From an uncultured Alphaproteobacteria bacterium (GTDB taxonomy: Bacteria > Pseudomonadota > Alphaproteobacteria > HIMB59 > GCA-002718135), in assembly GCA_902539825.1 (NCBI GenBank), contig CACBMH010000009.1:1-36945 (forward strand): a stretch of DNA of 36,945 nt, given 5' to 3'. The notes under the pieces were generated by a model. It did not search any database. It was not told where the DNA came from and worked only from the letters and a program-made list of their open reading frames with translations. Made by a program: the position numbers and the translations under genes. This document shows, piece by piece, positions 10,845 through 35,176 of this stretch; position 1 is the first letter of the stretch, and each line of letters begins with the position of its first letter.

Positions 10845-10856
10845 TAAGTTAGCCTC

Positions 10857-10888
10857 GAAAAAATCCAGCACTTTTAAAGTGCTGGATT
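10857..10888 (-). terminator. Rho-independent terminator downstream of the TRAP dctP gene
   Basis: 13-bp perfect inverted repeat AATCCAGCACTTT/AAAGTGCTGGATT followed by six T on the minus strand, directly after the dctP stop. Confidence 0.9.
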
Positions 10889-16634: not shown

Positions 16635-17532
16635 CTATCGAGCTTTAATACCTCTGAGTTTTTCAGACCTTCTTCTAAGTAGCTCAACTGTAGTTAATAA
16701 AAATATAGAAAGAAGTACTAAACAAGTAGCCATACATAAAATAACAGGGCTAATTTCTTGTCGTATTCCGGCCCACATTTGTTTTGGAATAGTTAACTGA
16801 TCAATACTTGCCATAAACATAACTATAACAACTTCATCAAAAGATGTAATAAAAGCAAATAAAGCTCCGGATATAATACCTGGTAAAATCAATGGCATAA
16901 TAACTTTAAAAAATGTTCTCATTGGTTTAGCACCTAAGCTTTGTGCTGCTTTTACCATATTCATATCGAAACCAACTAATGTTGCCGTTACAGTGATTAC
17001 TACAAAAGGTGTAGCAAGAGCAACATGTGCAAGAATTACACCTGTGAAAGTATAAACAAGATTTATTCTTGCATAGAAGAAGAACATTCCTGCAGCTGTT
17101 ATAATTAGTGGAACAATCATTGGTGAAATTAAGATTGCCATTATTAAACCTTTATATGGCATATGTGGTCTACTTAAACCAAGAGCTGCCAGTGTTCCTA
17201 AAGCTGTAGCAATAACAGTTGCTATAATACCAATATAAAAACTATTTACTGTACCTTTCATCCATTTTGTTGAGCAAGGAACAGTAGAAGAAACAACATC
17301 AGCACTACAATCACCAATCATATTTCTATACCATCTAATTGACCATGCTTCTGGGTCGGGAGGCCATGCAAGCATTCCTTCAGTAAAAACCATAAAAGGA
17401 GAAACGCTAAAAGAAATTGGAATAATTGCAAATAGTGGCGCTATTAAAAAAAAGAAAACTACCGTACAAAAAAAATAAGTAAAAATAATAGTAGGTTCTT
17501 TGTACTGGAGTTGAGTAACTTGGAAGAGCCAT
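16635..17532 (-). CDS. potC: spermidine/putrescine-type ABC permease (PotC-like), apparently frameshifted near the N-terminus
   Basis: Main ORF 16635-17393 has PotC motifs (SLGAKPMRTFFKVIMPLILPGIISGALFAFITSFDEVVI). The missing N-terminus MALPSYSTPVQRTYYYFYLFF starts at ATG 17532 in another frame, and the frames join by removing one T from an 8-nt poly-T run. Confidence 0.85.
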
Positions 17533-17535
17533 TTT

Positions 17536-18802
17536 TTATCCTAACTTTATATTGTCTATTCCGACAATTTTATTGTAGAGCCAATAGAAGATCAGCATTA
17601 TACCAAGAAGTATAGCACCAAGAGCAGCGCACAATCCCCAGTTAAGTGTTGTTTTTAAATGATAAGCAATCCAACTCCCAATCAATTTACCATCTTTTCC
17701 TCCAACTAATTCAGGTGTTATAAAATACCCAATGGCAAGTACAAAAACCAATAAACCACCAGCGCTTATACCAGGAATAGTCTGTGGTAAGTAAACTCGC
17801 AAAAATGCAGTTGAAGGTTTTGCTCCTAAATTTTGAGCAGCTCTCATATGACTTTTTGGAATTACCCTCATCACACTGTATAAAGGTAAAATCATAAATG
17901 GTAATAAAATTTGAGTCATTGCTATTAAGGTTCCAACTTCATTATAAACCATTTGTATTCGACCATCGTCGCTTATGATGCCTAACCAGACTAAAATTCC
18001 ATTTATAACTCCATTTTGTTGAAGCATTACAATCCATGCTGTTGTTCTCACAAGTAGAGAGGTCCAAAATGGAAGTAATACAAAAATCATCAGAAGATTG
18101 CTATATCTAAGAGGTAAATTAGCTAAGAGATGAGCAACCGGAAAGCCAAGAATTAAGCAAAAAATTGTTACATAAATACTTACCTTAAAAGTTCTAACCC
18201 ATGTTTTAATATACATTCTTCTTTTTTCATCTTGTAAAACGACATCTCCTTCTTCATCAAATGTTCTATCCAAAGCATTCCAATAATAAATTGAAGATCT
18301 ATCTTTTACCATTTGATTAAATGAGTACCAATAAGTTGGATCTGCCCAAAGCTTATTTATATTAATAAATGTATCTTTATACGAAACTGGTTCTTCGCCT
18401 TTTTTTACAATTTTTTTTATTTCTCTAGTTGTTTTTTTTATTAAACTTTTCCAACCAGATTTTGCATAATTCATTCTTGTTAAGGCTTTACCTATTTGTC
18501 TCTTGTCTCCATTAGCTAATTCAAAAAAAAGACTTTTATACACTTCTTCAGGTGGTAGTTCGTCAGCTCCTTTATCCCAATTTTTATATTCATCAAAAGT
18601 ATTAGGAAAAACTGAATTAATTTGACTATCATCGACGCTCCTAAGAAGCATATCTCCAATTGGCATTACAAAAGTGACAAAAAATGAAAAGGAGTAAAGG
18701 AAAAACAAGAAGAAATGCACGAAGTTTATTTCTTCTTTCAGCCTTTCGAAGACTTTGTTTGAGTGGAATTCCGTCTGTAGTTAATAATTCCGCTGTAGAA
18801 AT
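17536..18802 (-). CDS. potB: spermidine/putrescine-type ABC permease (PotB-like), apparently frameshifted near the N-terminus
   Basis: Main ORF 17536-18720 has NLGAKPSTAFLRVYLPQTIPGISAGGLLVFVLAIGYFITPELVGG. Upstream open frame ISTAELLTTDGIPLKQSLRKAERRNKLRAFLLVFPLLLFIF joins FVTFVMPIGDMLLRSV by removing one T. Start codon uncertain (ATT at 18802 behind GGAGG). Confidence 0.82.
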
Positions 18803-18873: not shown

Positions 18874-19977
18874 TTAGTTACCCATCCAAGCAGCATAACG
18901 CTCATTAATTTCTGCACCGTAATCTGACCACCATTGTGGATCACTTACGATTGAAACTTTTAAACGTTCTGGTGTGTTAGGCATGTGAGGCATGATATCA
19001 ACACCTCCTGGTCCCCAAGGCTCATTGTTTTCAATGATTGGAATACCAGATGCTCTCATTGGTCCATATGTAATATATTTAGCTTGTTCAGCTTGTGCTT
19101 CAGGAGTTGAAGCATGCATCATAAAGTCAATAGCTGCATCTCTGTTAGGAGCTCCAGCGGTTAGACAAAGATACTCTTGGTCTAAAACCTGACCTTCCCA
19201 AATATACTCAAAGTTTTCACCTTCAGCTAAGTTTGCTGCACCTACACGACCGTTATATGCGATAGCCATGATAACCTCACCACTTTTTACTAACTCAAGT
19301 GGTTGTGAACCAGCAGACCAGAAAACAACATCGTCCTTAATTCTGTCCATAACTTCAAATGCTCTATCAATAGCACCTGTTTGGTTAGCTAAAACTGTTG
19401 GTACTGCATTTGGTTTAACACCATCTGCTACCATAGCTTTTTCTATAATACCTGTTGCCCAAGTATGAATACCTCTTTTACCAGGGAATTTTTCTGTATC
19501 AAAGAAGTCTGCCATGCTGTCAGGCTTTTCACCAGGGAATGCGTCAGGATCATAGAATACAACATATGTCCAAAAGATTTGTGGTACACAACAGTCCCAA
19601 CCAGAATGGTATTCAAGACCATTATTTTCCATATCTTCTGCAATCGACTCACCATCAGGACCAGGAACACCTAAAGTAGCAATTTCACTTGAAATATCTT
19701 CAAATAATCCTTCATCACATCCAGTTATTGCATCAGATGGTAAAACATCTACTAAATCCCAAGTAACACTTCCACTTTCTACTTGAGCTCTTACTTCACC
19801 TAAACCTCCGTTGTAGTTTTCAAAGACAATTGAGCTAGGATCAGAATATGTATCAGCATAAGCTTTTTGTTGACTTTCTGTATAAGCACCACCCCATGAA
19901 GCAACAGTTACAGCGCTAGCTGCAAAAGGAGCAAAGACAAGTGACACAAATAAGAAGGCTTTTAAAAATTTAGACAT
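18874..19977 (-). CDS. potD: ABC transporter periplasmic binding protein, PotD/PotF family
   Basis: Sec-type signal MSKFLKAFLFVSLVFAPFAASA; VTVASWGGAYTESQQKAYADTY; DLVDVLPSDA; strong AGGAGG RBS upstream. Confidence 0.85.
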   Translation of the reverse strand: MSKFLKAFLFVSLVFAPFAASAVTVASWGGAYTESQQKAYADTYSDPSSIVFENYNGGLGEVRAQVESGSVTWDLVDVLPSDAITGCDEGLFEDISSEIATLGVPGPDGESIAEDMENNGLEYHSGWDCCVPQIFWTYVVFYDPDAFPGEKPDSMADFFDTEKFPGKRGIHTWATGIIEKAMVADGVKPNAVPTVLANQTGAIDRAFEVMDRIKDDVVFWSAGSQPLELVKSGEVIMAIAYNGRVGAANLAEGENFEYIWEGQVLDQEYLCLTAGAPNRDAAIDFMMHASTPEAQAEQAKYITYGPMRASGIPIIENNEPWGPGGVDIMPHMPNTPERLKVSIVSDPQWWSDYGAEINERYAAWMGN

Positions 19978-20108: not shown

Positions 20109-21197
20109 TTACAGATCTAATGCTCGGACATCTTCAGAATTCCAGCTTAATTTAAGTTCGTCACCTTCTTTATGATTAAAACTTCCTTCATTTGGAACCT
20201 TAACTATAAACTCATTATTACCACAAACATCAAGTCTAGCTCTGATGTGATCTCCTAGGTAAATTAGTTCTTCAATTTTACCTGAAAAATTATTGGAGTC
20301 AGATGTTGAGTTATCGATTGAAACACGTTCTGGTCTTATGGATAGTTGAGTTTTTTCTCCAACTTCATTAACATTAATTTTTAATGCTTTCACCATTCCA
20401 AAACCACCATCCAATTCAACAGTACATGATGATCCATTCACTTCCCTAACAACACCATTAAGTGTATTATTTTCACCAATAAATTTTGCAACAAAAGAAT
20501 TTTCAGGTTTTTCATACAAGATATCAGGTGTAGATAATTGTTGTACAACTCCATCATTGAATACTGCAATTCTATTGGACATTGTTAATGCTTCACTTTG
20601 GTCATGAGTAACATAGACAACTGTTATGCCAATCCTATCATGAATATGTTTTATTTCGTATTGCATCTGTTCACGTAAATTCTTATCAAGCGCGCCTAAA
20701 GGCTCATCCATTAATACTAGGCGAGGTTCAAATACCAGTGCTCTAGCCAAAGCGACTCTTTGCTGTTGTCCACCAGATAGTTGAGCTGGAAATCTTGTAC
20801 CAAAATTACCTAACTCAACCATATCAAGTGCTTTCTGCACTTTTTCTTTAATATCTGCTTTTGAAATTTTTCTCACTTCTAGTGGAAATGACAAATTTTC
20901 CGCAACAGTCATGTGAGGAAATAAAGCATAGTTTTGAAATACCATTCCTATTTCTCTTTCATAGGGAGGAATTTTACTAATTGGTTTAGTATCTAAAAAT
21001 ATTTCACCATTTGTAGGAGTTTCAAAACCAGCTAACATCATTAAAGTTGTTGTTTTACCTGATCCAGACGGACCCAACATTGTTACAAATTCACCCTTAG
21101 CAATGTCTAAGTTCAAGTTTTTTACTACTAGTACTTCTCCATCATAACTTTTATCGATCTTTTCAAATTTAACAAAACTTTTAGATGTGTCATTCAT
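20109..21197 (-). CDS. potA: ABC transporter ATP-binding protein, PotA family
   Basis: Walker A GPSGSGKTT, LSGGQQQRVALARAL signature, LVLMDEPLGALD Walker B, C-terminal TOBE-like region. Start ATG 21197 (MNDTSKS) preferred over 21239. Confidence 0.9.
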   Translation of the reverse strand: MNDTSKSFVKFEKIDKSYDGEVLVVKNLNLDIAKGEFVTMLGPSGSGKTTTLMMLAGFETPTNGEIFLDTKPISKIPPYEREIGMVFQNYALFPHMTVAENLSFPLEVRKISKADIKEKVQKALDMVELGNFGTRFPAQLSGGQQQRVALARALVFEPRLVLMDEPLGALDKNLREQMQYEIKHIHDRIGITVVYVTHDQSEALTMSNRIAVFNDGVVQQLSTPDILYEKPENSFVAKFIGENNTLNGVVREVNGSSCTVELDGGFGMVKALKINVNEVGEKTQLSIRPERVSIDNSTSDSNNFSGKIEELIYLGDHIRARLDVCGNNEFIVKVPNEGSFNHKEGDELKLSWNSEDVRALDL

Positions 21198-21262
21198 AAT
21201 ATATTTTGTAATGAAGCTTGAATAACTGCATGAAAACAAATAGTCAAAAGTTAATTTAAAAA

Positions 21263-22126
21263 ATGTTCATATTTGGAGTTATTTTTGCTTTAGTTGCTGG
21301 AATTTTATTTGGCTTAATTGGCCCTACTACAAAAATGGCTTATAATTCCGGCGCCTCTGTAGCATTAACTATTTTTTTACGTTACGCAGTAGCCTCGATA
21401 ATTATATTACCTTTTATCCCTTATCAAAAGAACCTATTAGAAATTTTTAAAAAGAACCTAAAATACTTTTTATCTATATCAGCTGGTTCTATATTATTAA
21501 CACTTGGGTTATTGACTTCAGTTATATTTATTGAAGTTAGTTTAACAATTCTTATTTTTTGCCTCTATCCAATATATGTTCTTTTATTTTCTATTATTAT
21601 CGATAAAGAAAAAATTTCACTAATTGTAAAGATTCTCTTTTTTGTAACATTTTTAGGAATTGTTTTAGTTATAGGACCATCTTTTAAAGTCATAAATATA
21701 ATAGGTATTCTTTTAGCTTTTCTTGCTTCACTTGGATCTACTAGTATGATTATAGTAAATCAAAAAATGTCTATTAAAGGTATTTCACCAATACCAATTA
21801 ATATCTTTATAAATGTTTTTAATACTATTTTCTTCTTTGTAATATTAAAAATATTTTTTTCTTTAAATTTTAATTTTGATTTCAATATTTATCTTTTAAT
21901 TTTAATTCCTTCCGTATGTTATAGCTTTGCACTTTTGTCACAATTAATTGCTATCCCCAAGATTGGAAAATCATATACTGCTTTATTTTTGTATTTAGAA
22001 CCAGTGGTGGGTGTTCTTGGGGCTGTTTTTTTATTAAAAGAAAATTTAGAAACTTATCAAATGATTGGTGCTTCGATTGTAATAATAAGTTTACTATCAG
22101 CTTCTTTTATTAGTAGTAGAAACTAA
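21263..22126 (+). CDS. EamA/DMT family transporter
   Basis: About 10 TM segments in two repeats; C-terminal LEPVVGVLGAVFLLKENLETYQMIGASIVI typical of EamA. Confidence 0.85.
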   Translation: MFIFGVIFALVAGILFGLIGPTTKMAYNSGASVALTIFLRYAVASIIILPFIPYQKNLLEIFKKNLKYFLSISAGSILLTLGLLTSVIFIEVSLTILIFCLYPIYVLLFSIIIDKEKISLIVKILFFVTFLGIVLVIGPSFKVINIIGILLAFLASLGSTSMIIVNQKMSIKGISPIPINIFINVFNTIFFFVILKIFFSLNFNFDFNIYLLILIPSVCYSFALLSQLIAIPKIGKSYTALFLYLEPVVGVLGAVFLLKENLETYQMIGASIVIISLLSASFISSRN

Positions 22127-23109
22127 AATTGGTTTTTCATGAAGTTAAACCAATTCTGACCTATTATTTTTGTAGAAACTTTTTCTGGAATATTATTTTC
22201 ACACATTAAATAAAATAAATTATTTAAGTCACTTGGTTGCTTATACCAACTTGGTAACTTAGGCCATTTTGGATTTTTATCTTTAGATTCTCCATAGTCG
22301 ATATTTTTGGTCCACTTTCCATTTCTCATCCACATAACTACATCATCAGACCAATTTAAACAAAGATCAGACCCTATTCCAATATTGTCTTCACCAATTA
22401 GGTTTACTAACTCCTTAATCATTTCACAAAAATCTTCTATGGTACAATCACCTAAATTTTTAAGATGGTAAGGATATAAACTTAACGCAATAAAACCATT
22501 TTTTTTAACAAGTTTTTGTAAAATATCAGTATCAATGTTTCTTTTAGATTTATGAAAGAAATTTGGGTTAGCATGAGAAATTGCCACAGGTTTATTTGAG
22601 ACTTCAATAGCATCAAGGCAAGTTTGCTTTCCTGCATGACTTAAATCTACAATCATGCCAAGTCTATTCATTTCTTCAATAACAGCTTTTCCAAATCGTG
22701 AAACACCTGAGTCTTTAGGTTCAAAACATCCACCAGCAAGTGGGGTTTGATTATTATAGGTGAGTTGCATAAATCTCACACCTGCTTCAAAAAATTTTTC
22801 AATTAAAAATATATCATTCGCAATAGGAGCAGAATTTTGAAAACCAAAAATAATTGCAACTTTATTATTGTTTTTAGCATCCAAAATATCTTCAGTAGTT
22901 TTTGCGTGAGCAATAATATCGTTATGCTCTTTAAAAAGACGGTGCCAATAATTTATTTTTTCAAAAGACTCTTCAGTATTTTCCCAATACACTAATGTCG
23001 CATGAATTGCAGTTAATCCAGCTTGGTGGGCATTTTCAAATAATTCCCTATTCCAGTTACAATATTCCAATCCATCAATTAGAAGTATATCTTCACTTAT
23101 TTTTGACAT
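22123..23109 (-). CDS. membrane-dipeptidase (renal dipeptidase, M19) family protein, divergent
   Basis: EAGVRFMQLTYNNQ, DLSHAGKQTCLDAIE, PVAISHANP, IGIGSDL. Canonical DGHxD, E and H positions substituted (see findings). Confidence 0.8.
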   Translation of the reverse strand: MSKISEDILLIDGLEYCNWNRELFENAHQAGLTAIHATLVYWENTEESFEKINYWHRLFKEHNDIIAHAKTTEDILDAKNNNKVAIIFGFQNSAPIANDIFLIEKFFEAGVRFMQLTYNNQTPLAGGCFEPKDSGVSRFGKAVIEEMNRLGMIVDLSHAGKQTCLDAIEVSNKPVAISHANPNFFHKSKRNIDTDILQKLVKKNGFIALSLYPYHLKNLGDCTIEDFCEMIKELVNLIGEDNIGIGSDLCLNWSDDVVMWMRNGKWTKNIDYGESKDKNPKWPKLPSWYKQPSDLNNLFYLMCENNIPEKVSTKIIGQNWFNFMKNQF

Positions 23110-23163: not shown

Positions 23164-24828
23164 ATGTTACAAAAATTAAGAAAAAACGATAACTACATGA
23201 AACTATCAAGAATGGGTTCACGCTATCCTTCTCGCCTTAGTTTTTCTAGAAGTATGTTAAGAAGATTGATCAACGACAACTGGGAAATACACAAGTCAAA
23301 ATTTGATTTAGATAAATATGGTTTCGGCACTGTTGTTTATGAAATAATTATTAATAAGCAAACTTATTCACTTGTATGTTTCTCTGCTTTTCTAGATGAT
23401 AAGGATAGAAGTGATAGAGTTATCGCTAGTAAATGGGATACAGCCTATACGTTACATGTAGGTAAATTATCTGATCAAGATCTAAATAGATTAAAAAAAA
23501 CAATTCCTCTTCAAGAATCAGGTCGTAATTCTCCAGACGAGTTAATTCTTAGCAGAGCAAATAAAAGTGTAAGATTGTTTCAGTATGTTGTCGATTGTCT
23601 TTCAAATGGTAATCAGCCAGATATTTATGAAATAAATAAAGTTGGGTATTTGCTGAGAACTACTGCTGTCTATGGTAGTGGTAAATTTGGATTATCAGAT
23701 TTTACTAACACAAAAAATACAACTGTTTTCAATCAACCCTTTAGAGCAGAAATGTTATCAGTTTATTTAATTAGAGAATTTAGTATCGAATTAGTTGAGC
23801 ATGTTGCAAGGCAAATTAATCCAAAAAAAGCAGTAAAGTTAGATAGAAAAATTAAACAACATTTAGGTATTGGTAATTCAACAGGTTTAGGTATGGCACC
23901 TTTTATCATTAAACATCCAAAGTTGATTAATAAGTGGATGAAACAGTACACAAAGACATTAGAAGAAATTTCTCAAATTGAGTTAGATAGTATAATTTTC
24001 GAAAAATATAAAAAACTGTTGAATAAAGCTCTTAATTATCTTGAGGAAGTAAACACAAGTGATGAATTCCAAATTAATAAAAATAAATTCACTACTGAAG
24101 ATTTAAAAAAATATATTTTCTATATTAATAACTTAGATCTTTCTCAAAAATTTAAATGGTTAGATATTCTAGATTATTGTGATTCAAATTTTAATAACGA
24201 TACTCAAGAAATTGCAAGAGTACAACTAATTGAATTGTATCCTCAAATATCAGAAGAGTTAGCAGAAGATATGGCAGATGAGGAGATAATGGAAATTGAT
24301 GGAAATCAATCTATCGGAGATATAAAACAAATAATCAATGATAAATATTCTTGGATAAAAGATATTGATTTTAATAACAAAGATAGCAATTATTTATTTT
24401 GGTATGTTTCAGCAGCAAAGTTAGAACCTAGGCTGGGTGAAAGATATAATGAGCAAGGAAGTGAATTGGAACAAAATTTAGGAATTGCAAAAATGGTCAG
24501 TGACTTATTTAAGCAAATAAAAAATGTAGATGAAAATCAATTAATTTGTGAATTTTTATTAACACATCCTCAATACAGAGGAATTGTTAAAAGAATACAG
24601 TCTTTAAAAAATTATCCTTATTCGGAAGTTCAAGATAATGTTCTCGATAAAAAAACAATACCAATTGATATGTTAAGATTTAAATTATCTTTTTTTGGTG
24701 CCAATCGATATGATCCTAAGTCAGATAGATGGTTAAGAGTAAGTTTTTTTTCTGGAGCTCCTTATTTATCAGATCTAAATAATAAAAATGTTGATGAATG
24801 GGGTTTTGCAACAATGAATTCATATTAA
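23164..24828 (+). CDS. conserved protein of unknown function (partner of DUF3726-like protein)
   Basis: 554-aa ORF, no signal peptide or TM segment seen; LSRMGSRYPSRLSFSRSMLRRL, LSRANKSVRLFQYVVD, GYLLRTTAVYGSGKFGLSDF, GIGNSTGLGMAPFIIKHP. Start may be ATG 23197 (MKLSRMGSRYPSR). Confidence 0.85.
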   Translation: MLQKLRKNDNYMKLSRMGSRYPSRLSFSRSMLRRLINDNWEIHKSKFDLDKYGFGTVVYEIIINKQTYSLVCFSAFLDDKDRSDRVIASKWDTAYTLHVGKLSDQDLNRLKKTIPLQESGRNSPDELILSRANKSVRLFQYVVDCLSNGNQPDIYEINKVGYLLRTTAVYGSGKFGLSDFTNTKNTTVFNQPFRAEMLSVYLIREFSIELVEHVARQINPKKAVKLDRKIKQHLGIGNSTGLGMAPFIIKHPKLINKWMKQYTKTLEEISQIELDSIIFEKYKKLLNKALNYLEEVNTSDEFQINKNKFTTEDLKKYIFYINNLDLSQKFKWLDILDYCDSNFNNDTQEIARVQLIELYPQISEELAEDMADEEIMEIDGNQSIGDIKQIINDKYSWIKDIDFNNKDSNYLFWYVSAAKLEPRLGERYNEQGSELEQNLGIAKMVSDLFKQIKNVDENQLICEFLLTHPQYRGIVKRIQSLKNYPYSEVQDNVLDKKTIPIDMLRFKLSFFGANRYDPKSDRWLRVSFFSGAPYLSDLNNKNVDEWGFATMNSY

Positions 24829-24833
24829 TATCT

Positions 24834-25514
24834 GTGAGTTACTCTTATTATGAAGTCTACACTAATTCACAGCGAGCTTTTTCAGGATTAGGGTTCACTT
24901 ATGGATCAGATGAAGACGCTGCATTTATTACAACTTGGCTTGAAATACTTGGTTTAGACGGAATCAAATTATTAACATTAAAAATCAAAGAATTAGATAA
25001 CACTTTTAATGCTTGCATAGATCCATCAAATATAAATGATGAGTTTGATTGTAAAAATAAGTCTTCATTGATGATAGGGCCAGGATTAATTGATTATTTG
25101 ATATCAAAAGTAGATAAAAAAGAAAATTTAAAATTAACTATAAATAATTGCAATGATCCCATATTCCTAATACCTTTGCTTTATAAGTATGCAAAAAAAA
25201 ATATCAATTCACAGTTTTTGTTAGATCAAAAAGTTGATGCACAAATAACAAATAAAAATATTAGCATTAATAGAGATATTATCTCTACAAATTATCAAAG
25301 AAATTTTGATCTTTTACTTACAAAAAATATTTTAAATGAACAAAAGTTAGATATTAATATTCCATCATCAAATATAAATAATTTGCTATCTGAAGGCATA
25401 AATCCTGATAAAAAATCTTGGGATCAAATATCTAAGATAGCTTTTAGAACTTTTGTACCTGAGTCCGAGGAATCTAGAGCGAAAGGTGCTGGAGGTGGTG
25501 ATGCAAATGATTAA
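24834..25514 (+). CDS. DUF3726-like protein
   Basis: VSYSYYEVYTNSQRAFSGLGFTYGSDEDAAFITTWLEILGLDG N-terminus and AFRTFVPESEESRAKGAGGGDAND C-terminus match my recollection of DUF3726 proteins. Track start 24798 overlaps the upstream gene; GTG 24834 is 5 nt past its stop. Confidence 0.75.
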   Translation: MSYSYYEVYTNSQRAFSGLGFTYGSDEDAAFITTWLEILGLDGIKLLTLKIKELDNTFNACIDPSNINDEFDCKNKSSLMIGPGLIDYLISKVDKKENLKLTINNCNDPIFLIPLLYKYAKKNINSQFLLDQKVDAQITNKNISINRDIISTNYQRNFDLLLTKNILNEQKLDINIPSSNINNLLSEGINPDKKSWDQISKIAFRTFVPESEESRAKGAGGGDAND

Positions 25515-26686
25515 TTTACTAAATGCAAATCTCTTGGGACTTGAGTAAGTAACTCATAACCTGATTCTGTTACTCTAACTGACTCACTTAGTTCTAATCC
25601 CCACGTATCCATCCACATTCCACACATAAGATGAAAAGTAACATTAGGTTCTAAAAGTGTCTTTTCATTTTTCCGGATACTAAGTGTGTGTTCTCCCCAA
25701 TCAGGAGGATAACCAATACCAATTGAGTAACCAGCTCTTGACTCTTTTTCTAATCCATATTTTTCTAATACTGACCAAAAAGCAACTGCAACATTATGAC
25801 AACTATTTCCTGGGTTTGTTTGTTCTAAAGCTTTCTCAATACCTTCATTTGTTATTTTTAATGTATCCGATATCTTTGGATCAGGTTTACCAACATACAC
25901 AGTTCTGGATAAGGCACAGTGATAACGATGTTTCACACCACCTAATTCAATAATTGTTCCTTCATTATTTTCAAATTTTTTATCACTAGGAGTTAAGTGT
26001 GATGCTGATGCTGATCTCCCACTTGCAAGTATTATACCTAAACCTGAATATTCTCCTCCAATTTGTGTTGAATCATTTCCAGCAATGAGAGTATTTTGAA
26101 TTTTTCCTGCAACTGTACTTTGTTTTACACCTTCTTTTATTGAATCAAATGCTGTTGTCATTCCTGCTTTCACAAGTGTGCCAGCATCTTTCATAAATTT
26201 TATTTCATTTTCAGATTTTACATATCTAACCCAATTAATTAGAAGATGTGCATTAATAAATTTAGCATTCTTTAAATTATCTTTTAATCTCCTATGATTT
26301 TCTGCAGTATAGTAATAGCTATCCATTTCGACGCCAATATTTTTACTTGACCAATTTTTGTCTTTAAATAATTTAACTATATAATCATATGGATGTAATG
26401 GTGGTGATTGAATAAGTTGCTCAGGATAACCAAATATATTTTCTTCATTTAAAAAAGTTGTAATCCTTGCACCATTCGAATCTTGCTTTCTTCCAAACCA
26501 AAATGGTTGATCTTCATCTATAGAAATTATTACTCCTTGTGGAACATAAAATGACCATCCATCATAGCCAGTTAGATAGTTCATATTAGAGGGATCAGTA
26601 GTTAATAGAATATCAACACCTCTTTTATTCATAGACTGTTTTACTTTTGCAATTCTTGAATTAAATTCTTCTTGTGAAAAAATCAT
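25511..26686 (-). CDS. M24-family hydrolase, ectoine hydrolase (DoeA/EutD)-like
   Basis: NYLTGYDGWSFYVPQGVI, GRKQDSNGARITTF, SYYYTAENHRRL, WVRYVKSENEIKFM, GYPPDWGEHTLSIR, MCGMWMDTWGLELSESVRVTESG. Confidence 0.75.
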   Translation of the reverse strand: MIFSQEEFNSRIAKVKQSMNKRGVDILLTTDPSNMNYLTGYDGWSFYVPQGVIISIDEDQPFWFGRKQDSNGARITTFLNEENIFGYPEQLIQSPPLHPYDYIVKLFKDKNWSSKNIGVEMDSYYYTAENHRRLKDNLKNAKFINAHLLINWVRYVKSENEIKFMKDAGTLVKAGMTTAFDSIKEGVKQSTVAGKIQNTLIAGNDSTQIGGEYSGLGIILASGRSASASHLTPSDKKFENNEGTIIELGGVKHRYHCALSRTVYVGKPDPKISDTLKITNEGIEKALEQTNPGNSCHNVAVAFWSVLEKYGLEKESRAGYSIGIGYPPDWGEHTLSIRKNEKTLLEPNVTFHLMCGMWMDTWGLELSESVRVTESGYELLTQVPRDLHLVN

Positions 26687-26705: not shown

Positions 26706-27269
26706 TTATCTCTCTAATACTTCATATCCAAACTGATCTGCTGTTTCAAGAAGGATCTCCCAAATTGATAAGGCAAAACCTCTTGGCATATATAGACAGT
26801 AATTATTAGAGGATATTTTAAATAACTTAACACTGACATGATGAATGGCTGTGCTAGCAGAAGATAGATCTGGAAAATTCCTAGCTCTTAAATCAATTGG
26901 AAGATGTCTATTTAAAAATAATGATGAATTATCTCCTGTAATTTCAATACCTGTGAAAGCATGAGACATGTCTAAAATTGTTGCGATTTCCTCACTTATT
27001 TCAATTTTTTTATTAAATAGCCACCATTTTAAAGGTTCCATTCTCCATAATGATTTATTTTCAAAAATTATACCTTTATTAAAACTAGGAATATTTTTAA
27101 TTTTTAGTTCTTTTGATAGTAAATTATTCATTTCATCAATTTTGTCAGGCCAACAAGCAACTTGCAAAATTTCTAAACTTTTTAATTCTTTAAATGTTAG
27201 AGATTGTTTCTCGTTTGATGAATATTTTCCAACCTTATAATTTGTTTCTAGTGCAGAATATCTATGCAT
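26706..27269 (-). CDS. soxG: sarcosine oxidase gamma subunit family protein
   Basis: 187 aa from ATG 27269 (MHRYSALETN), overlapping the soxA stop; position in soxBDAG order; DLRARNFP and HHVSVKLF segments. Confidence 0.82.
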   Translation of the reverse strand: MHRYSALETNYKVGKYSSNEKQSLTFKELKSLEILQVACWPDKIDEMNNLLSKELKIKNIPSFNKGIIFENKSLWRMEPLKWWLFNKKIEISEEIATILDMSHAFTGIEITGDNSSLFLNRHLPIDLRARNFPDLSSASTAIHHVSVKLFKISSNNYCLYMPRGFALSIWEILLETADQFGYEVLER

Positions 27270-30219
27270 ACATTCGTTCTCCTTTAGGATCAATCATATG
27301 TGGTGAAACAACTTTTAAATTCATTTGTTTATTTCTTACAGGATCTGCCCCAACTAAATTGGTATCTTTCCATTTATCTAAACCACCTTTGACAAAACCT
27401 AATCCAATCCAATGTCCAAGTTCAGGAGAATAAGTAACTGAGGTAATTCTTCCGATACCCTGTCCTTTAATATTATTTTTTTCACAGACAATAGTTCCAG
27501 CATTAAAAGTTTCTTTTAAGTTTGTAGGAAAGAAACCTACTAGAATTTCTCGATCATTATTTTTTAATACTCCTCGTTTTCTCATTGCGCTTCCAATATA
27601 CGATTTTTTTGTAGAAGCCATTTTGCTTAAACCTGCATCATCAATTGTTACCCTTCCATCAAGCTCAGCGGCTGTTACATGACCTTTTTCAACTCTAAGT
27701 GCACCTAAAGCTTCTAATCCATATAAACATCCATCATATTTTTTTGCATTTTCCCAAAGTAGGTCCATCATTGTATTAGCAAAATCTGATTTGACATAAA
27801 CTTCAAAAGCTAATTCACCTGAAAAACTAATTCTTGCTATTCTGCAAGGAATATTACCTTTAAGAAATGTTGAAGTAACACCCATAAAAGGTAAGTTATT
27901 ATTAGTTATAACCAAAGAATCATCTAAACAATTATTGAGAACTTCTCTAGATTTAGGTCCTGCAACTGATACGCCTGCCCATTGTTCAGAAACACTAGTC
28001 ACATTAACATTAAGATCTGTCCATCTAGTTTGAAGTAATTCTTCTAACCATGACATCACTTTTGCAGCTTCACCTGTAGACGTCGTCATAAAATATTCAT
28101 TTTCTGCTAATCTCCAAGATGTGCCATCATCCATTACAATACCGTCATCCCGCAACATGATACCGTATCTAGCTTTTCCAACTTGTAGTTTTGAAAAACC
28201 ATTCGAATAAATTCTATTTAAAAATTCAGTAGAGTCTGGTCCTTGAATAGAGATTTTGCCTAATGATGTTACATCACAAATTCCAACTGTTTTTCTTACT
28301 GTTGATGCTTCTCTTATATAAGATTCACTTAAAGTTTCATTTTCTTTCGGATAATACCAAGGTCTTTGATACAATCCAACTTCAATCATTTTTGCACCAT
28401 GACCAATATTCCATTGATGCATTGGTGTTACTCTTAACGGCCTAAAATGTTTTCCAACATTTCTTCCACTTAAGGCACCTATAGATACAGGGGTATACGG
28501 AGGTCTGAAAACAGTAGTTCCAACTTCTGGAATTTCTTTATTTAAAAGTTCAGCCATTAAAGATAATCCAATGATATTTCCCATTTTTCCTTGATCATTT
28601 GCCATGCCTAAAGTTGTGTATCTTTTAAGATGCTCTACCGAAATGAAACCTTCACGATGTGCTAGTCTTACGTCATCTGTCGTTACATCATGTTGATAAT
28701 CTACAAAACTTTTTGGTCTAGATTTTTTATATTTTACTTCATAAAGTGGTTGTATGGGATTTTTCCATCCACCAGGTTTTGGAAAAAAATAATTTGTTTT
28801 AGAAATACCTAAACGGTTTAACGCATCAGTAGTTCCTGCTATCCCAGAAGCAATACAATCATTTTTATTCCATAAACCTCTAGAAGAACCTACCATTGTG
28901 ATATTTTCTTTTGTGTCAGTCGGTAAAAAACAAGCATTGTTATAATCCCATTTAGGCTTTACACCCCTGTGAGATAACAAATGTACAGCAGGCGACCAAC
29001 CGCCTGATAATAGAACCTGATCACAATTTAAAGTTTCAAATTTATTCATATCCTCACTTTTTGATATATCTAAACTATGAATTTTTTTTGAACCATTAAT
29101 ATTATAAGGCACATACCCTTTTCTAATTTCAAAACTTTTATTTGTTTCAATTTCAAAATTAGTTCGTGAGTCAAGAACAGTTACATTGGCTCCAGCTTCC
29201 GATAATTGTTGTGCTGTTTCATAAACAGAATCATTATTTGTAGCTATCGCAATTCTTTTTCCTGTTAGTACACCATATCTATTCAAATAATGCTTTGATG
29301 CATTTACGGTCATTACACCAGGAATATCATTATTATTAAATGCAATATGTCTTTCAATTGCTCCAGCGCCAACAATTATATGCTTTGCTCTAATAGTCCA
29401 AAATCTTTGACGTGGAATGTTTACATTTGGTGCTGATATATGATCTGTTACTCTCTCTAATAAACCAACAACACAATTATCATATAGTCCGAACGCAGTA
29501 GTTCTAGTCATTATTTTTATTCCTAGATTTTCAAGTTGATTTTTAATCTGTGAGTTATCAAAATTATTTTCTGCAAGTTGATCTCCTCCAACAAGACTAT
29601 CTTGCTCAACTAAAATAACATCTAATTTTTTTTCTACTGCCTCTATTGCAGCTGCAACACCAGCAGGCCCTGATCCTACAACAATTAAATCACAAAAATC
29701 ATGAGCATGTTCATAAGAGTCTGGATCAGGTAACTCAGAAGCACTTCCCATTCCCGCCGCTTTTCTAATAAACTTTTCAAAAAACATCCATATAGCTGTT
29801 CCTCTACCCCATTCAAATGGAGGTATTCCCATAAAAGTTTTATAATAAAAGCCAGCTGCAAAAAATCTACCTAAGTAATTATTTATTCCCGCTAGATCAA
29901 AATTTACATTTGGGAATGCATTTTGACCACTTGCTTCCAAACCATTATATAATTCTTGTGTTGTTGCTCTTACATTTGGATCTCTTCTATCTTTTGAACC
30001 AATAGTAACTAAGGCGCCGGATTCCTCAACTCCACTAGAAAATATTCCTCTTGGTCTATGATATTTAAAACTTCTTCCAACTATACCAATATTATTTGCA
30101 AGTAATGCTGATGCTAGAGTATCTCCTTCAAAACCTTTGTAATTCTTTTTATCCCATCTAAAGGATAGAATTTTATCTCTATTAATTTTTCCATAATTAT
30201 CTAATCTTCTTGTTTTCAT
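27262..30219 (-). CDS. soxA: sarcosine oxidase alpha subunit family protein
   Basis: 985 aa: N-terminal FEGDTLASALLANNIGIVGRSFKYHRPRGIFSSG, central DLIVVGSGPAGVAAAIEA, C-terminal GcvT-like domain. Confidence 0.93.
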   Translation of the reverse strand: MKTRRLDNYGKINRDKILSFRWDKKNYKGFEGDTLASALLANNIGIVGRSFKYHRPRGIFSSGVEESGALVTIGSKDRRDPNVRATTQELYNGLEASGQNAFPNVNFDLAGINNYLGRFFAAGFYYKTFMGIPPFEWGRGTAIWMFFEKFIRKAAGMGSASELPDPDSYEHAHDFCDLIVVGSGPAGVAAAIEAVEKKLDVILVEQDSLVGGDQLAENNFDNSQIKNQLENLGIKIMTRTTAFGLYDNCVVGLLERVTDHISAPNVNIPRQRFWTIRAKHIIVGAGAIERHIAFNNNDIPGVMTVNASKHYLNRYGVLTGKRIAIATNNDSVYETAQQLSEAGANVTVLDSRTNFEIETNKSFEIRKGYVPYNINGSKKIHSLDISKSEDMNKFETLNCDQVLLSGGWSPAVHLLSHRGVKPKWDYNNACFLPTDTKENITMVGSSRGLWNKNDCIASGIAGTTDALNRLGISKTNYFFPKPGGWKNPIQPLYEVKYKKSRPKSFVDYQHDVTTDDVRLAHREGFISVEHLKRYTTLGMANDQGKMGNIIGLSLMAELLNKEIPEVGTTVFRPPYTPVSIGALSGRNVGKHFRPLRVTPMHQWNIGHGAKMIEVGLYQRPWYYPKENETLSESYIREASTVRKTVGICDVTSLGKISIQGPDSTEFLNRIYSNGFSKLQVGKARYGIMLRDDGIVMDDGTSWRLAENEYFMTTSTGEAAKVMSWLEELLQTRWTDLNVNVTSVSEQWAGVSVAGPKSREVLNNCLDDSLVITNNNLPFMGVTSTFLKGNIPCRIARISFSGELAFEVYVKSDFANTMMDLLWENAKKYDGCLYGLEALGALRVEKGHVTAAELDGRVTIDDAGLSKMASTKKSYIGSAMRKRGVLKNNDREILVGFFPTNLKETFNAGTIVCEKNNIKGQGIGRITSVTYSPELGHWIGLGFVKGGLDKWKDTNLVGADPVRNKQMNLKVVSPHMIDPKGERMYA

Positions 30220-30500
30220 TTATTATTTTCTACAACCTTCTGTAAGTTCGGATTACATGGTTTGACACTTTTTATTTCATGAGTGACTGTAGAACGTTCA
30301 ACTACCAACCACATTCTACATCCATTAGAATGATGCCATGTTTCAAATTGAAAACCTTTTATATTTTTTCTGAAAAATATAGCTTCAGTCCATTCTTTCT
30401 CTGATGCATCTAAGGAAGGATAATTGATTGTTGCATCTCCTCCATAACTAAATTCACTATGATCTCTTTCACCACAATAAGGACAATTGATTCTAATCAT
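30216..30500 (-). CDS. soxD: sarcosine oxidase delta subunit
   Basis: 94 aa, MIRINCPYCGERDHSEFSYGGDA and HHSNGCRMWLVVERSTVTHEI. Confidence 0.93.
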   Translation of the reverse strand: MIRINCPYCGERDHSEFSYGGDATINYPSLDASEKEWTEAIFFRKNIKGFQFETWHHSNGCRMWLVVERSTVTHEIKSVKPCNPNLQKVVENNK

Positions 30501-31766
30501 TTAACCGTGCAATTTAGGATCAGGTCCTGCACCACGTTCATCTATATTGATACCTTTTTCAAATCTTTCTAAATTATGATTTTGCACGTAGTTATGCGGG
30601 CTTTCATTTGCAATTAAGTCAGCAAAATACCAACCTGACGCTGGACTTGCTTTAAAACCCCCATAGTTCCAACCAGCATTTAAATAGAGATTAGATATCG
30701 GCGTTTTACAAATAAAAAATGATCCATCCATTGTCATGTCCATAACACCTGCCCAATGACGAAGTAATCTTATTCTTCCAAGTGAAGGAAATATTGCCAT
30801 GGCCGCTTCGGCAACATCTTGAACCATAGGAAGATTTCCTCTTTGAGCATATGATTTATACCAGTCAAGATCACCACCAAACACCATACTTCCTTTATCT
30901 GACTGCGATATATAGAAATGTGCACCACCTACACCGTAAACAACAACCTGATCTAGAAGTGGCTTAACAGCCTCAGATACAAATGCTTGTAGTTTATGAG
31001 ACTCAATTGGCAGGTTACCTAATTCTGCCATTTGCCATAATACTGAAGTATTGCCTGCAACAGCAAATCCTATTTTCTTTCCTTTTATAATTCCTCTTGA
31101 AGTTTGAATACTTTCTATATTTCCATTCTTTCTTGTAAAACCTGTAACTTCACAATTTTGCAGAATGTCTACACCTAATGTATCTGCAGCCCTTGCATAA
31201 CCCCATGCTACTGCATCGTGTCTTGCATTGCCTGCTCTTTTTTGAACTGCAGCTCCAAGTATTGGAAATCTAGAATTATGATAATTTAAATGCGGAATTT
31301 TTTTCTTTAAAGTTTTTAAATCCCAAAGTTCTGCATCAGTTCCGTGGAGTCGCATAATATTATAAATCCGTGAAACTGAATCTTTAGCACCAGGGCTATG
31401 AAATAATGAGACATGAGCTCGTTGGCTAAACATTACATTATAATTTAATTCGTGACTTAAATTTTCCCATAACTTTAAAGAATGTTCATAAAATTCGTGG
31501 TTGCCTGGCATCATGTAATTTGATCTTACAATAGTTGTATTACGTCCAGCGTTTCCTCCACCAATCCAGCCTTTTTCTAAGACAGCTACATTTTTTATAT
31601 TATGATTCTTTGCTAAATAATATGCTGTGGCAAGACCGTGTAAACCTCCCCCAATTATTACAACATCATAACTACTTTTTGGTTCTGGATCACGCCATTG
31701 TCTAGTCCAATAAGACTGACCATTTAAACCGTTTTTAATTACATTCCAGGCATTAAATTTTGTCAT
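30501..31766 (-). CDS. soxB: sarcosine oxidase beta subunit family protein
   Basis: YDVVIIGGGLHGLATAYYLAK, GGGNAGRNTTIVRSNY, GNARHDAVAWGYARAAD; heads soxBDAG. Confidence 0.93.
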   Translation of the reverse strand: MTKFNAWNVIKNGLNGQSYWTRQWRDPEPKSSYDVVIIGGGLHGLATAYYLAKNHNIKNVAVLEKGWIGGGNAGRNTTIVRSNYMMPGNHEFYEHSLKLWENLSHELNYNVMFSQRAHVSLFHSPGAKDSVSRIYNIMRLHGTDAELWDLKTLKKKIPHLNYHNSRFPILGAAVQKRAGNARHDAVAWGYARAADTLGVDILQNCEVTGFTRKNGNIESIQTSRGIIKGKKIGFAVAGNTSVLWQMAELGNLPIESHKLQAFVSEAVKPLLDQVVVYGVGGAHFYISQSDKGSMVFGGDLDWYKSYAQRGNLPMVQDVAEAAMAIFPSLGRIRLLRHWAGVMDMTMDGSFFICKTPISNLYLNAGWNYGGFKASPASGWYFADLIANESPHNYVQNHNLERFEKGINIDERGAGPDPKLHG

Positions 31767-31842: not shown

Positions 31843-32868
31843 TTAACTTGATGAATCTGGCCATGTGTCATTTAATCTATAACCTTCTGGAAAAGGATCA
31901 TCCTTATCGATATATAAACTTTGTTTTCCTGTAATAAATGCACTACCTGTTAATTTTGGAATAATACAATTTTTGTTATTAATTTTAATTTCCTTTTCAA
32001 TACTTGCTTTAAATGAAGATCCTATAATAGACTTTGATATAAATTCTTCATTTATTTGTATTTCATTTTTTTCTTTCATTACTGCTAATCTTGCTGAAGT
32101 ACCTGTACCACAAGGTGAACGATCAAGTTTCCCAGGTCGTATAACAACTGTATTTAATCCTGTAAGTAGTGATTGATTATTTTTTTTTAAAGGTTCAATA
32201 AATTGGCAAAAGGAAAGATAGTCTAATCCTTTAATAGTAGGATGCTCAAATCCTATAGATGTGTTTGCTTCTTTCAATAATTCTTTGGCAACATTTACAA
32301 ATTTATTTGCATTCTTAGGCTCAATTTTAAGATTAAAATCACTAGCATTACAGATTAAAAAACTGTCACCTCCAAAAGCGGTACTTACTTTTATTGTACC
32401 ATAATTTTTAGTCTTTAAATCTACATCTATTTTGTCTGCAAAGCAGGCAAGATTAGTTAAAGTGACACTTTTAACTTTCTTATTTTCACAATCAGCAACA
32501 ACTTTTATTAAACCACCGGGAGCTTCAAGTGTAAGCATAGTTTTAGGATATTTCATTTGAACAATATTTTTTTCTAATAAGACTGTCGTTACACAAATTG
32601 CATTTGACCCGCTCATTGGAGGATTATCTTCTGGTTCCATAATTACAAATCCAGCATCTGCATTTTTACTTGAAGGTTCTAAAATAATATTACAATGTTT
32701 AAAGACCCCTCCTCGAGGTTCATTTAAAAAAAAATTTCTCCATTTTTTATCTAAAAAAAGTTTTTTAGAAGCTTCCTCAGGTGAATTAAACTTCAAATCT
32801 TTAATTCCAGTTACGACATCCCCAATTTCACCACAGCAATGTGTGTTAAATACTGTGATTTCATCCAT
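31843..32868 (-). CDS. proline racemase superfamily protein (hydroxyproline epimerase/dehydratase-like)
   Basis: THCCGEIGDVVTG, EPRGG, MSGSNAICVTTVLLE, DRSPCGTGTSARLAV. Confidence 0.88.
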   Translation of the reverse strand: MDEITVFNTHCCGEIGDVVTGIKDLKFNSPEEASKKLFLDKKWRNFFLNEPRGGVFKHCNIILEPSSKNADAGFVIMEPEDNPPMSGSNAICVTTVLLEKNIVQMKYPKTMLTLEAPGGLIKVVADCENKKVKSVTLTNLACFADKIDVDLKTKNYGTIKVSTAFGGDSFLICNASDFNLKIEPKNANKFVNVAKELLKEANTSIGFEHPTIKGLDYLSFCQFIEPLKKNNQSLLTGLNTVVIRPGKLDRSPCGTGTSARLAVMKEKNEIQINEEFISKSIIGSSFKASIEKEIKINNKNCIIPKLTGSAFITGKQSLYIDKDDPFPEGYRLNDTWPDSSS

Positions 32869-34018
32869 GTGGAATTATTAGATCATCAATATTTTTAGAA
32901 TGATGTGTTATTTGTTCGTATCCATCTTTTGTTATAATAAAACTATCTCCAACTTGTGATCTAAAATTGTTTGCACTTGCCCCACCATCAACAGCAAACA
33001 CCATTCCAGGCTGAAGAACTGTTTTGTTCCCAACTACTAATTGTGGTTCCTCTAAAAAGCTAAAGCCTGTACCTCTTCCGCATCGAAATGTAGGATAAGG
33101 GTATCCTTCAGACTGTATAGTATCTGCATAAGCAGCATGAACTTCTTCAGCCGTAACTCCAGGACCAAGAATTTCAAGAGCAGCTTTTTGAGATTTTACT
33201 GCAGTCTCAAAAGCTTTTATTTGTTCATCGGATTGAATTTCTTCTACCCAAAATATTCTGTCAAAACCTAATTTAAACCTATGAAAATTTGTAGAACCAC
33301 AATAACACACAAATACGGGATCACCTTTTTGTATAATTTTGGTTGAAGCACGATGATGAGTTTTAGGTAAATCATGTCCCGATGTCATAACAGGTAAAAA
33401 GTGAATATTTGGAGACATATTGATATTATCAGGATAAAATTCTTTTAAAAGATCTGCAGCTTTTCTTGTTCCAGCTTGTGATTGTGCAAGTGCAACCTCA
33501 TACTCCGGAACATTATGACCAATTGTTTTTTTTGCTGCCTCCATCATAGCCATACCAACTTCGCCAGCATGACGAGCTATATTCAATTCATGATTAGATT
33601 TAATCATTCTTATATTATCTATTAATTTGGTTAAATCCCCAGGATGATCTTGCAGTATTTCGTCTAAATAATTTTTAACCATTGGATTGATTTTAAATTT
33701 TTCAATAAAAATATTTTTATGCTGATTAATAATTTGAGGTAATAATTCTCTCCATTCATTTCCAATACCATCATTCCATGTTTCAACTGTATCCACAGGA
33801 CAATCATCTGGTACTAATAAAACATCAAGAAGTGGTGTAATTAAGTAAGTTTTATGATCATTTGAAACAATTAATAATGTTGGTCGATTAAAATCCATAT
33901 GAAGAAAGTCATGATATCCTGTAAAATAATATATAGAGTCATCATCTGTTACAATTGAAAGATCAATATTATTCTCAGACATTTTTTTCTTAAGTTTATT
34001 TAAATTTTCAGAAAACAT
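32861..34018 (-). CDS. M24 (creatinase/Xaa-Pro aminopeptidase-like) family protein
   Basis: NIDLSIVTDDDSIYYFTGYHDF N-terminal domain; FRCGRGTGFSFLEEPQ, LQPGMVFAVDGGAS, VGDSFIITKDG pita-bread fold motifs. Confidence 0.85.
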   Translation of the reverse strand: MFSENLNKLKKKMSENNIDLSIVTDDDSIYYFTGYHDFLHMDFNRPTLLIVSNDHKTYLITPLLDVLLVPDDCPVDTVETWNDGIGNEWRELLPQIINQHKNIFIEKFKINPMVKNYLDEILQDHPGDLTKLIDNIRMIKSNHELNIARHAGEVGMAMMEAAKKTIGHNVPEYEVALAQSQAGTRKAADLLKEFYPDNINMSPNIHFLPVMTSGHDLPKTHHRASTKIIQKGDPVFVCYCGSTNFHRFKLGFDRIFWVEEIQSDEQIKAFETAVKSQKAALEILGPGVTAEEVHAAYADTIQSEGYPYPTFRCGRGTGFSFLEEPQLVVGNKTVLQPGMVFAVDGGASANNFRSQVGDSFIITKDGYEQITHHSKNIDDLIIPHG

Positions 34019-35173
34019 TTATTTTAATTGTTGTTCTACTAATTCAGTCCAATATGAAGAACCTATGACTAATAATTCGTCATTAAAATCGTAATTATCA
34101 GCATGTAAAGGTCTAGAATGCTGCTCTGATATACCGTTACCCATTAAAACAAAGCAGCCAGGTTTTTCATTTGCCATTACTGAAAAATCTTCTGAGAATA
34201 AACGCGGTTCAATATCGCCGTTACATTTATCATTTCCAAGTAATGAAACTGCAGCTTTTGTTGCAGACTCAGTTTGGTTTTTTGAATTAAAAGTTACAGG
34301 ACAAGTTGTTTCATATTTGACACTACCATTAACACCATGTGCATTGCAAATGCCCTCAACAATTTGTAACATTTTTGATGCAATTGTTTCATTTGTTTCT
34401 TTTGATAAAGCTCTTGCATCACCAGTCATTTTTACCATGCCTGGCAGAACATTTTTTTTACCATCGGTTATAAATTCAGTAATAGAAACTATACCATTAT
34501 CTGCTGGATTTAATTTCCTAGAAACTATAGATTGCAGTGCTACTGCTATTTGAGAGCCAACAGTTATTGCATCAACGCCCATATGAGGTAATGCAGCATG
34601 TCCACCTTTGGCTTTTATTTCAATTTCAAATAAATTTTCACTTGCTGTAATAGGTCCTTTTCTTGTACCAAATGTTCCAATCTCCATATTAGGAATGTTG
34701 TGCATAGCGTAAACTTCATCAATGTTAAATTTATCAAACAAACCTTCATCTATCATTGTTCTTGCGCCAAAAGTATTCTCTTCATCAGGCTGAAAAATAA
34801 AATATACTGTTCCATTAAAGTTACCTTTTTCTGATAAATATTTTGCTGCACCTAATAACATTGTAGTGTGACCATCATGTCCACATGCATGCATTCTATT
34901 ATCAAACTTTGACTTATAACTAAAATTATTAGTTTCATGTATTGGAAGAGCATCCATGTCAGCTCTTATACCTATTGATTTTGAACTATTTCCTTTTTTT
35001 AAAATTCCAACTACTCCAGTTCTGGCAATACCAGAATGAACTTCTATTCCAAACTCTTTTAGAAGTGTTGACACTTTTGCAGCAGCATATTCTTCTTCAA
35101 AACTTATTTGAGGGTGCATGTGAAGATCATGACGCCATTCTACTAATTGGTTATGTAATGACTGAGTTTTCAT
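34019..35173 (-). CDS. M20 family amidohydrolase / N-acyl-amino-acid hydrolase
   Basis: WRHDLHMHPQISFEE, GIRADMDALPI, HACGHDGHTTMLLGAAKYL, QPDEENTFGA. Confidence 0.92.
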   Translation of the reverse strand: MKTQSLHNQLVEWRHDLHMHPQISFEEEYAAAKVSTLLKEFGIEVHSGIARTGVVGILKKGNSSKSIGIRADMDALPIHETNNFSYKSKFDNRMHACGHDGHTTMLLGAAKYLSEKGNFNGTVYFIFQPDEENTFGARTMIDEGLFDKFNIDEVYAMHNIPNMEIGTFGTRKGPITASENLFEIEIKAKGGHAALPHMGVDAITVGSQIAVALQSIVSRKLNPADNGIVSITEFITDGKKNVLPGMVKMTGDARALSKETNETIASKMLQIVEGICNAHGVNGSVKYETTCPVTFNSKNQTESATKAAVSLLGNDKCNGDIEPRLFSEDFSVMANEKPGCFVLMGNGISEQHSRPLHADNYDFNDELLVIGSSYWTELVEQQLK

Positions 35174-35176
35174 AAA

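Follow-up and report, generated by a model that had tools for sequence, protein, structure and literature searches.

We analyzed a window of 36,945 nucleotides (positions 1 to 36,945 of contig CACBMH010000009.1, from an uncultured Alphaproteobacteria bacterium) and focused on two adjacent genes, ORF1 and ORF2, the second of which encodes a DUF3726 protein. With a probability of about one half, the two products join as subunits in a single catabolic enzyme that works with a neighboring M19-like protein and would attack an N-methylated azaheterocyclic carboxylate, homarine being the likeliest, toward N-methylglutamate, which would then pass to N-methylglutamate dehydrogenase (Mgd). The host assembly of the window is 0.96 Mb and 61% complete. 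Among named genomes, the closest to it are single-cell genomes from the open ocean (e.g. AG-337-I02), which belong to the AEGEAN-169/HIMB59 order. The three genes on which the argument turns are as follows.

23164..24828, plus strand: ORF1, 554 aa, ATG start; no Pfam or PDB family; proposed to carry the main catalytic role in the pair
24834..25514, plus strand: ORF2 (DUF3726), 226 aa from GTG; predicted shortened Ldh_2 fold without SHG, with a conserved C-terminal tail, SRxxGAGxG..ND
22123..23109, minus strand: M19-like protein, divergent to ORF1 and 54 bp apart from it; constant partner with an atypical metal site

Co-occurrence and sequence features of the pair

Among 278 Alphaproteobacteria, 31 genomes bear DUF3726, and in all 31 ORF1 was found on the same contig, tens of bases away. 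In distant homologues, the ORF1-ORF2 junction is typically a 4-nt overlap, which is a signature of translational coupling, and in Mesorhizobium sp. 131-2-1 the two are fused into one gene of 815 residues (WP_199201047.1). Because of this adjacency, the overlaps, and the fusion, there is strong evidence that the products of ORF1 and ORF2 act together as one functional unit. A prior reading of the window from its letters alone (the sequence-only reading) had supposed such a shared function and co-occurrence, and had described two real, adjacent, plus-strand genes with a GTG start at 24834; the homologues support it on each of these points. The GTG is the likely start of ORF2, since it yields MSYSYYEV, which aligns with the N-termini of distant homologues (MSYSLNEI, MSHSLNEI, and the like). 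Twelve codons upstream, a longer reading from an in-frame ATG at 24798 (24798-24833) overlaps the end of ORF1; it is shared with several relatives and absent from two others, L100 and L103.

ORF1 was present in 40 of 289 sampled Alphaproteobacteria and in some other Proteobacteria. It was also found in 168 plasmid or megaplasmid records, mostly from Sinorhizobium and Phaeobacter, and no relatives were found in the viral contigs searched. The plasmid of Phaeobacter inhibens DSM 17395 carries ORF1 at two places. The genes of the pair are PGA1_RS19010 and PGA1_RS19015 in that strain and TM1040_RS02335 and TM1040_RS02340 in Ruegeria sp. TM1040. Copies within the window's genus are 98% to 66% identical, and the sister family stands at ~45%.

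ORF1 alone did not match any entry in Pfam, NCBIfam, PHROG, or the PDB, and the profile of its family (45 homologues) gave only chance helical matches to the PDB and Pfam. It was also unrelated to the Ldh_2 profile. The AF2 model of ORF1 was poor (pLDDT 57, from a shallow alignment), and its Foldseek matches were meaningless, giving no fold match. A heme-dioxygenase-like fold was considered for ORF1 and dropped, with nothing in its favor. The family alignment of 45 sequences, reaching down to 28% identity, contains more than 40 invariant residues, many of them charged or polar. Among these are R131, N133, S135, R137, Y162, R165, G173, G176, G235, G237, N238, L242, G243, H251, and P252, and the blocks of ORF1 that the sequence-only reading had quoted as constrained hold such residues. 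The invariant set has many arginines, a single histidine (H251), and no cysteine, which argues against a multi-histidine metal site or an Fe-S cluster in ORF1.

ORF2 matched DUF3726 (PF12525) at 39 bits, with a cut-off of 22.1, and 38 of 39 ORF2 homologues matched it as well; no literature treating DUF3726 was found. The AF2 model of ORF2 was fair (pLDDT 77, pTM 0.77). Its first 27 Foldseek matches all belong to the type-2 malate/lactate dehydrogenase family (Ldh_2), the best having an E of 1.8e-4, a probability of 1.0, and a query TM of about 0.6. Two other members of the ORF2 family match PF02615 (Ldh_2) directly over their first 133-135 residues (1.3e-10 and 6.1e-9), and hhalign aligned the ORF2 profile with that of the Ldh_2 proteins encoded in ORF1 cassettes over 59 N-terminal columns (82.7%, E 9.6e-6). 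The window ORF2 itself gave no match to PF02615, and the ORF2 profile gave none to PDB sequences. From the model, the hhalign alignment, and the Pfam matches of other members, ORF2 is predicted to be a shortened Ldh_2-fold protein, which is a new point for DUF3726. The SHG motif, present in nearly all cassette Ldh_2 proteins, is absent from the ORF2 alignment and, therefore, ORF2 is unlikely to work as a dehydrogenase in the usual way. The C-terminal tail is conserved instead, with the consensus SRxxGAGAGxxDND. Structure prediction, which the sequence-only reading had proposed for both proteins, gave a fold for ORF2 and none for ORF1.

The constant partner of the pair is the M19-like protein, not the M24 gene on the other side, and it had not been singled out by the sequence-only reading. 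We scanned 64 ORF1 loci, several of which end at contig ends, with cassette genes as queries, and the M19 family was found at 59. In the window's genus, M19 is in place at 52 of 52 testable loci. The window protein matched the M19 Pfam family at 242 bits and the "amidohydrolase" 2i5g at 206 bits. Canonical M19 proteins hold a binuclear metal through an HxD motif, a bridging Glu, and two His. In the window protein, the bridging Glu is replaced by Gln, the N-terminal HxD is also replaced, and both later His are kept; because of the two replacements, it is not a standard binuclear dipeptidase. In the M19-like subfamily that includes 2i5g, half of the metal ligands of canonical dipeptidases are gone, and in the Shinella copy one of the two His that are left is missing as well (DMSD for DMSH).

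Cassette context and the proposed homarine route

Over the 64 loci, the scan found cassette-type aldehyde dehydrogenase (ALDH) at 29, Ldh_2 at 18, BCCT at 15, LysR at 14, and SoxB-like genes at 6. The annotated cassette order LysR-ALDH-M19-(BCCT)-ORF1-DUF3726-(Ldh) was seen in Ruegeria, Mesorhizobium, Shinella, Phaeobacter, and Sulfitobacter. More broadly, the pair occurs in a cassette with ALDH, M19, and a betaine-type transporter, often with the Ldh_2 reductase too, across roseobacters, rhizobia, Vibrio, and Caballeronia. In a HIMB59-type genome, genes for a betaine transporter (OpuAC/permease/ATPase) stand ahead of ALDH-M19-ORF1-ORF2. The sox/mgd genes of Ruegeria TM1040 are separated from its ORF1 cassette by an AraC-type regulator, and MttB and DMSP genes (DMSP demethylase) are found near some cassettes. 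Elsewhere, then, the genes around ORF1 and ORF2 (BCCT, betaine ABC, DMSP demethylase, Sox/Mgd-like) are those of the catabolism of N-methylated osmolytes. The nearest PDB relative of the cassette Ldh_2 protein is DpkA, a delta1-piperideine-2-carboxylate reductase (184 bits vs. 136 for the next), and this likeness would fit a reductase acting on the imine of a partly reduced N-methyl (picolinate) ring.

Among the osmolytes of phytoplankton, homarine is an abundant one. The trigonelline-opening enzyme TgnAB was judged unlikely to open the homarine ring (PMC8269262; the homarine concentrations given there were overstated, according to a published correction). Mgd takes part in homarine catabolism (PMC13390433, which cites Ferrer-Gonzalez et al. 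2026). A gene for an AraC family regulator, tmaR, adjoins mgd (PMC13390433). The TM1040 sox operon, which immediately neighbors the cassette, has an AraC-type regulator next to it too.

In the route that we propose, ORF1 and ORF2, with the M19-like protein, would attack homarine (N-methylpicolinic acid) and open a way to N-methylglutamate, the step of the pair being either ring dearomatization or oxidative C5-C6 ring opening. The ring attack is given to ORF1 and ORF2 by elimination, since they are the sole cassette genes without assignable chemistry. Oxidation of the semialdehyde so formed would fall to the cassette ALDH, reduction of a cyclic N-methyl imine to the Ldh_2 reductase, and release of the N-formyl carbon to the M19-like protein. 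MgdABCD, the putative product of the neighboring "sox" genes, would then demethylate N-methylglutamate to glutamate. By carbon accounting, N-methylglutamate would retain the N-methyl group of homarine, its carboxyl, and C2 to C5, with C6 being lost; one would then expect the C5-C6 bond to be cleaved, a semialdehyde to be oxidized, and an N-formyl carbon to be split off. It is from this context that we infer the substrate and step of the pair.

Several points weigh against the homarine route. Close orthologues of the cassette ALDH (best 33-35%) and of the cassette Ldh_2 reductase (29-35%) were not found in the window's genus. This makes the substrate of the window's clade less certain, and the clade may use other enzymes for these two steps or act on another substrate. 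The ORF1 of the window's genus also forms a long branch inside the main ORF1 clade. Sox/Mgd-like genes lie within reach of just 6 of the 64 ORF1 loci, and Mgd serves methylamine too, so its vicinity is no proof of homarine. The loss of ligands in the M19-like protein weakens the deformylase role suggested for it. A second ORF1 subfamily (Sinorhizobium, Aminobacter) has the order IclR-ORF1-ORF2-M19-ABC. Because its regulator and transporter are different and it has neither ALDH nor Ldh_2, the triad of ORF1, ORF2, and M19 is a module serving more than one context and not one pathway only. Finally, a gene set named homABCDER, a regulator plus five genes with N-methylglutamate as the product, is said to have been described in the 2026 work of Ferrer-Gonzalez et al. 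(Nat Microbiol 11:1531). Equating the cassette genes with the hom genes would rest on this gene number, which is a lead and not a test.

Three related observations are recorded here. The window ALDH at 13971-15404 was tried as the cassette enzyme and rejected, being only 34-35% identical. The divergent ORF1/ORF2/M19 module of the second subfamily is carried on pSymB of Sinorhizobium meliloti and on Aminobacter plasmids (L292:11223-19438; L295:9196-17268), and its ORF2 no longer matches DUF3726. In Mesorhizobium ciceri, an ORF1/ORF2 pair (L293:10022-12423) lies between ABC permease and ATPase genes with no adjoining M19.

The triad could instead act on some other N-methylated or cyclic osmolyte, such as proline betaine, hydroxyproline betaine, trigonelline, pipecolate betaine, or carnitine, and the window's clade may have a different substrate from the roseobacter cassette. 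The second subfamily, with its different regulator and transporter, speaks for this, as do the MttB and DMSP genes near some cassettes. So does the window's own AEGEAN clade, which is without the ALDH and Ldh_2 orthologues and yet keeps a Pot-type ABC transporter and an EamA-type permease in 49 of 49 loci. The genes concerned are listed below.

21263..22126, plus strand: EamA-type permease, beside M19/ORF1 in 49 of 49 genus-level relatives; may be a transporter
20109..21239, minus strand: Pot-type ABC ATPase, conserved in 49 of 49 genus-level relatives; may belong to an uptake system
18874..19977, minus strand: SBP_bac_8 solute-binding protein of the same Pot-type transporter, likewise conserved in 49 of 49
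17536..18720, minus strand: Pot-type ABC permease
16635..17393, minus strand: Pot-type ABC permease

Against another substrate, the DpkA-like reductase and the placement of the window sox genes in a clade with a copy linked to mgs (described below) point to a six-membered N-methyl ring converted to N-methylglutamate, and we regard another substrate as unlikely, if still to be kept in view. The window Pot-type transporter was also tried as a counterpart of the transporter beside the rhizobial triad and rejected, as the solute-binding proteins are 25% identical and there is no orthologue.

The sox-like operon and other neighbors

The last step of the homarine route depends on the identity of four sox-like genes in the window.

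30501..31766, minus strand: soxB-like subunit, read as part of Mgd
30216..30500, minus strand: soxD-like subunit; gene order as in soxBDAG/mgdABCD
27262..30219, minus strand: soxA-like subunit, assigned to the same dehydrogenase
26706..27293, minus strand: soxG-like subunit, assigned to the same dehydrogenase

In a tree of concatenated SoxA and SoxB, built by a quick method without bootstrap, the window copy falls in a 22-row clade with full support (100). The clade includes cassette-adjacent copies (Ruegeria TM1040 L118, L257), a copy beside M19 and Ldh_2 (L247), and a HIMB59-type copy (L239) followed by class-II amidotransferase, GXGXG, glutamate-synthase (mgsABC-like), and gmaS-like genes. 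Copies linked to fhs and DMGDH, including the second AEGEAN copy (L261, genome G220), form a separate 15-row clade, and a third, distant clade holds other mgs-linked copies. The four window genes stand in the BDAG order, and because their clade includes a copy linked to mgsABC and gmaS, they probably encode N-methylglutamate dehydrogenase.

It is quite unlikely, though not negligible, that the window genes encode an ordinary sarcosine oxidase that lies close to the triad by chance. In favor of this, sox genes were near only a few of the ORF1 loci outside the genus, and the locus of L233, the nearest relative of the window copy, contains DMGDH and MttB genes. The window genes do not group with the fhs- and DMGDH-linked copies, as canonical SoxBDAG would, and this too is not decisive given L233. 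Their clade stands apart from the canonical one and holds the mgs-linked HIMB59-type copy, AEGEAN has a second copy of the canonical type, and the synteny is held in the genus, with SoxA in place at 46 of 52 genus-level relatives. Sarcosine, which the sequence-only reading had among its candidate substrates, is thus not favored for these genes. AEGEAN-169 keeps two Sox/Mgd-type operons from different clades (L261; window 26706-31766), like SAR11. The same two-paralogue problem was met in SAR11, where it could not be said which operon is which (PMC3160333).

It is improbable that ORF1 and ORF2 serve the M19-like protein or the Sox/Mgd flavoenzyme in maturation, as chaperones, or as regulators. 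The lack of an enzyme family match for ORF1, the resemblance of ORF2 to a catalytically broken dehydrogenase, and the constancy of M19 as a neighbor would suit such a role. Against it, the many charged or polar invariant residues of ORF1 are typical of an active site, and M19 proteins of the renal dipeptidase kind function with no partner like ORF1/ORF2. An assembly factor for the neighboring sox genes, as the sequence-only reading had proposed, does not agree with the loci either, with sox within reach in 6 of 64 and M19 in 59.

The remaining neighbor of the pair is a single gene between ORF2 and the sox-like operon.

25511..26686, minus strand: M24 gene

The M19, M24, and sox-like genes (26706-31766) were found where the sequence-only reading had placed them, all on the minus strand. 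It had also called the M24 gene ectoine-hydrolase-like, an identity that was not established by its score of 464.5 bits against the DoeA ectoine hydrolase model TIGR02993 (cut-off 613). M24 is at the expected place in just 20 of 53 genus-level relatives and at no ORF1 locus outside the genus; because of this placement, M24, and the ectoine idea with it, falls outside the ORF1/ORF2 unit. The regions 25511-26686 and 31843-36619 together contain two M24 genes, a trans-3-hydroxyproline-dehydratase-like gene, a DoeB2-like M20 gene, and a PLP enzyme gene. None of them reach an NCBIfam equivalog cut-off (the M20 gene scores 312 bits against DoeB2 and the proline-racemase-type gene 415 bits against T3LHypDht), and they may represent a catabolic stretch for amino-acid derivatives. 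Service of the pair in ectoine or hydroxyproline catabolism with these genes has physical proximity and the sub-threshold scores in its favor and is highly improbable, given the placement of M24 and the absence of all such genes from annotated ORF1 cassettes elsewhere. Of the neighbors whose enrichment around the pair the sequence-only reading had asked about, M19 was the constant one, and neither M24 nor sox followed it. Its general idea of osmolyte catabolism by a coupled pair was partly right, in that genes for N-methylated osmolytes lie near the pair in other genomes, while the link to ectoine through M24 fell away.

A glutamine-synthetase-like gene at 9486-10871 was tried as GmaS and rejected (219.5 bits vs. 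a cut-off of 469.6 for the type III model). It adjoins a TRAP transporter and sugar-acid-type genes and scores far under the GlnA, type III, and gamma-glutamylputrescine synthetase cut-offs.

Comparison with known systems

Bacterial sinks for homarine have only recently become known. If the proposed route is true, ORF1 and ORF2 as ring attackers would be a new way of breaking an N-methylpyridinium ring, ORF1 plus DUF3726 would be a diagnostic pair for homarine flux in genomes and metatranscriptomes, and the uncultured AEGEAN-169 clade would join the homarine consumers. A Pfam domain of unknown function, DUF3726, would also gain a fold with a testable hypothesis. What is new here is the predicted fold of DUF3726, an ORF1 without a known family or solved structure, and an M19 protein without the canonical metal ligands. 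From these parts it is possible, but doubtful, that ORF1-ORF2(-M19) represents an enzyme type not described before, one that dearomatizes or opens homarine, with an ORF1 of unknown fold, a degenerate dehydrogenase in ORF2, and an altered metal site in M19. The AEGEAN-169 version would then be a divergent, Mgd-linked one, possibly with a related substrate.

The Pfam model of DUF3726 covers only the N-terminal 73 positions, which correspond to the start of the predicted shortened Ldh_2 fold in ORF2. Compared to Ldh_2 proteins (PF02615, including DpkA), ORF2 has 226 residues instead of about 335, is ~10% identical, and is missing SHG. The window M19 protein shares the family match with membrane dipeptidase but differs from it in the metal ligands. 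The window sox genes group with an mgs-linked copy as MgdABCD would, but a distant second mgs-linked clade exists, and the assignment is one by synteny only.

In the later steps of the trigonelline pathway, an aldehyde dehydrogenase and then a hydrolase act. The logic shared with the proposed route is the opening of an N-methylpyridinium carboxylate ring, which is done there by TgnAB (PMC8269262). No TgnAB-like oxygenase was seen in the annotated cassettes, and ORF1 and ORF2 match no oxygenase family. A further likeness is to homABCDER as it is reported. The window differs from that set, since of the cassette genes it has only M19, ORF1, and ORF2, plus Mgd, with M19 turned round, and a regulator with five structural genes is not found in it. 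The cassette of Ruegeria, Mesorhizobium, and Shinella has LysR, ALDH, M19, ORF1, DUF3726, and Ldh. The roseobacter cassette, like the reported hom genes, has a regulator plus five structural genes, the vicinity of Mgd, and a spread over marine and soil Proteobacteria.

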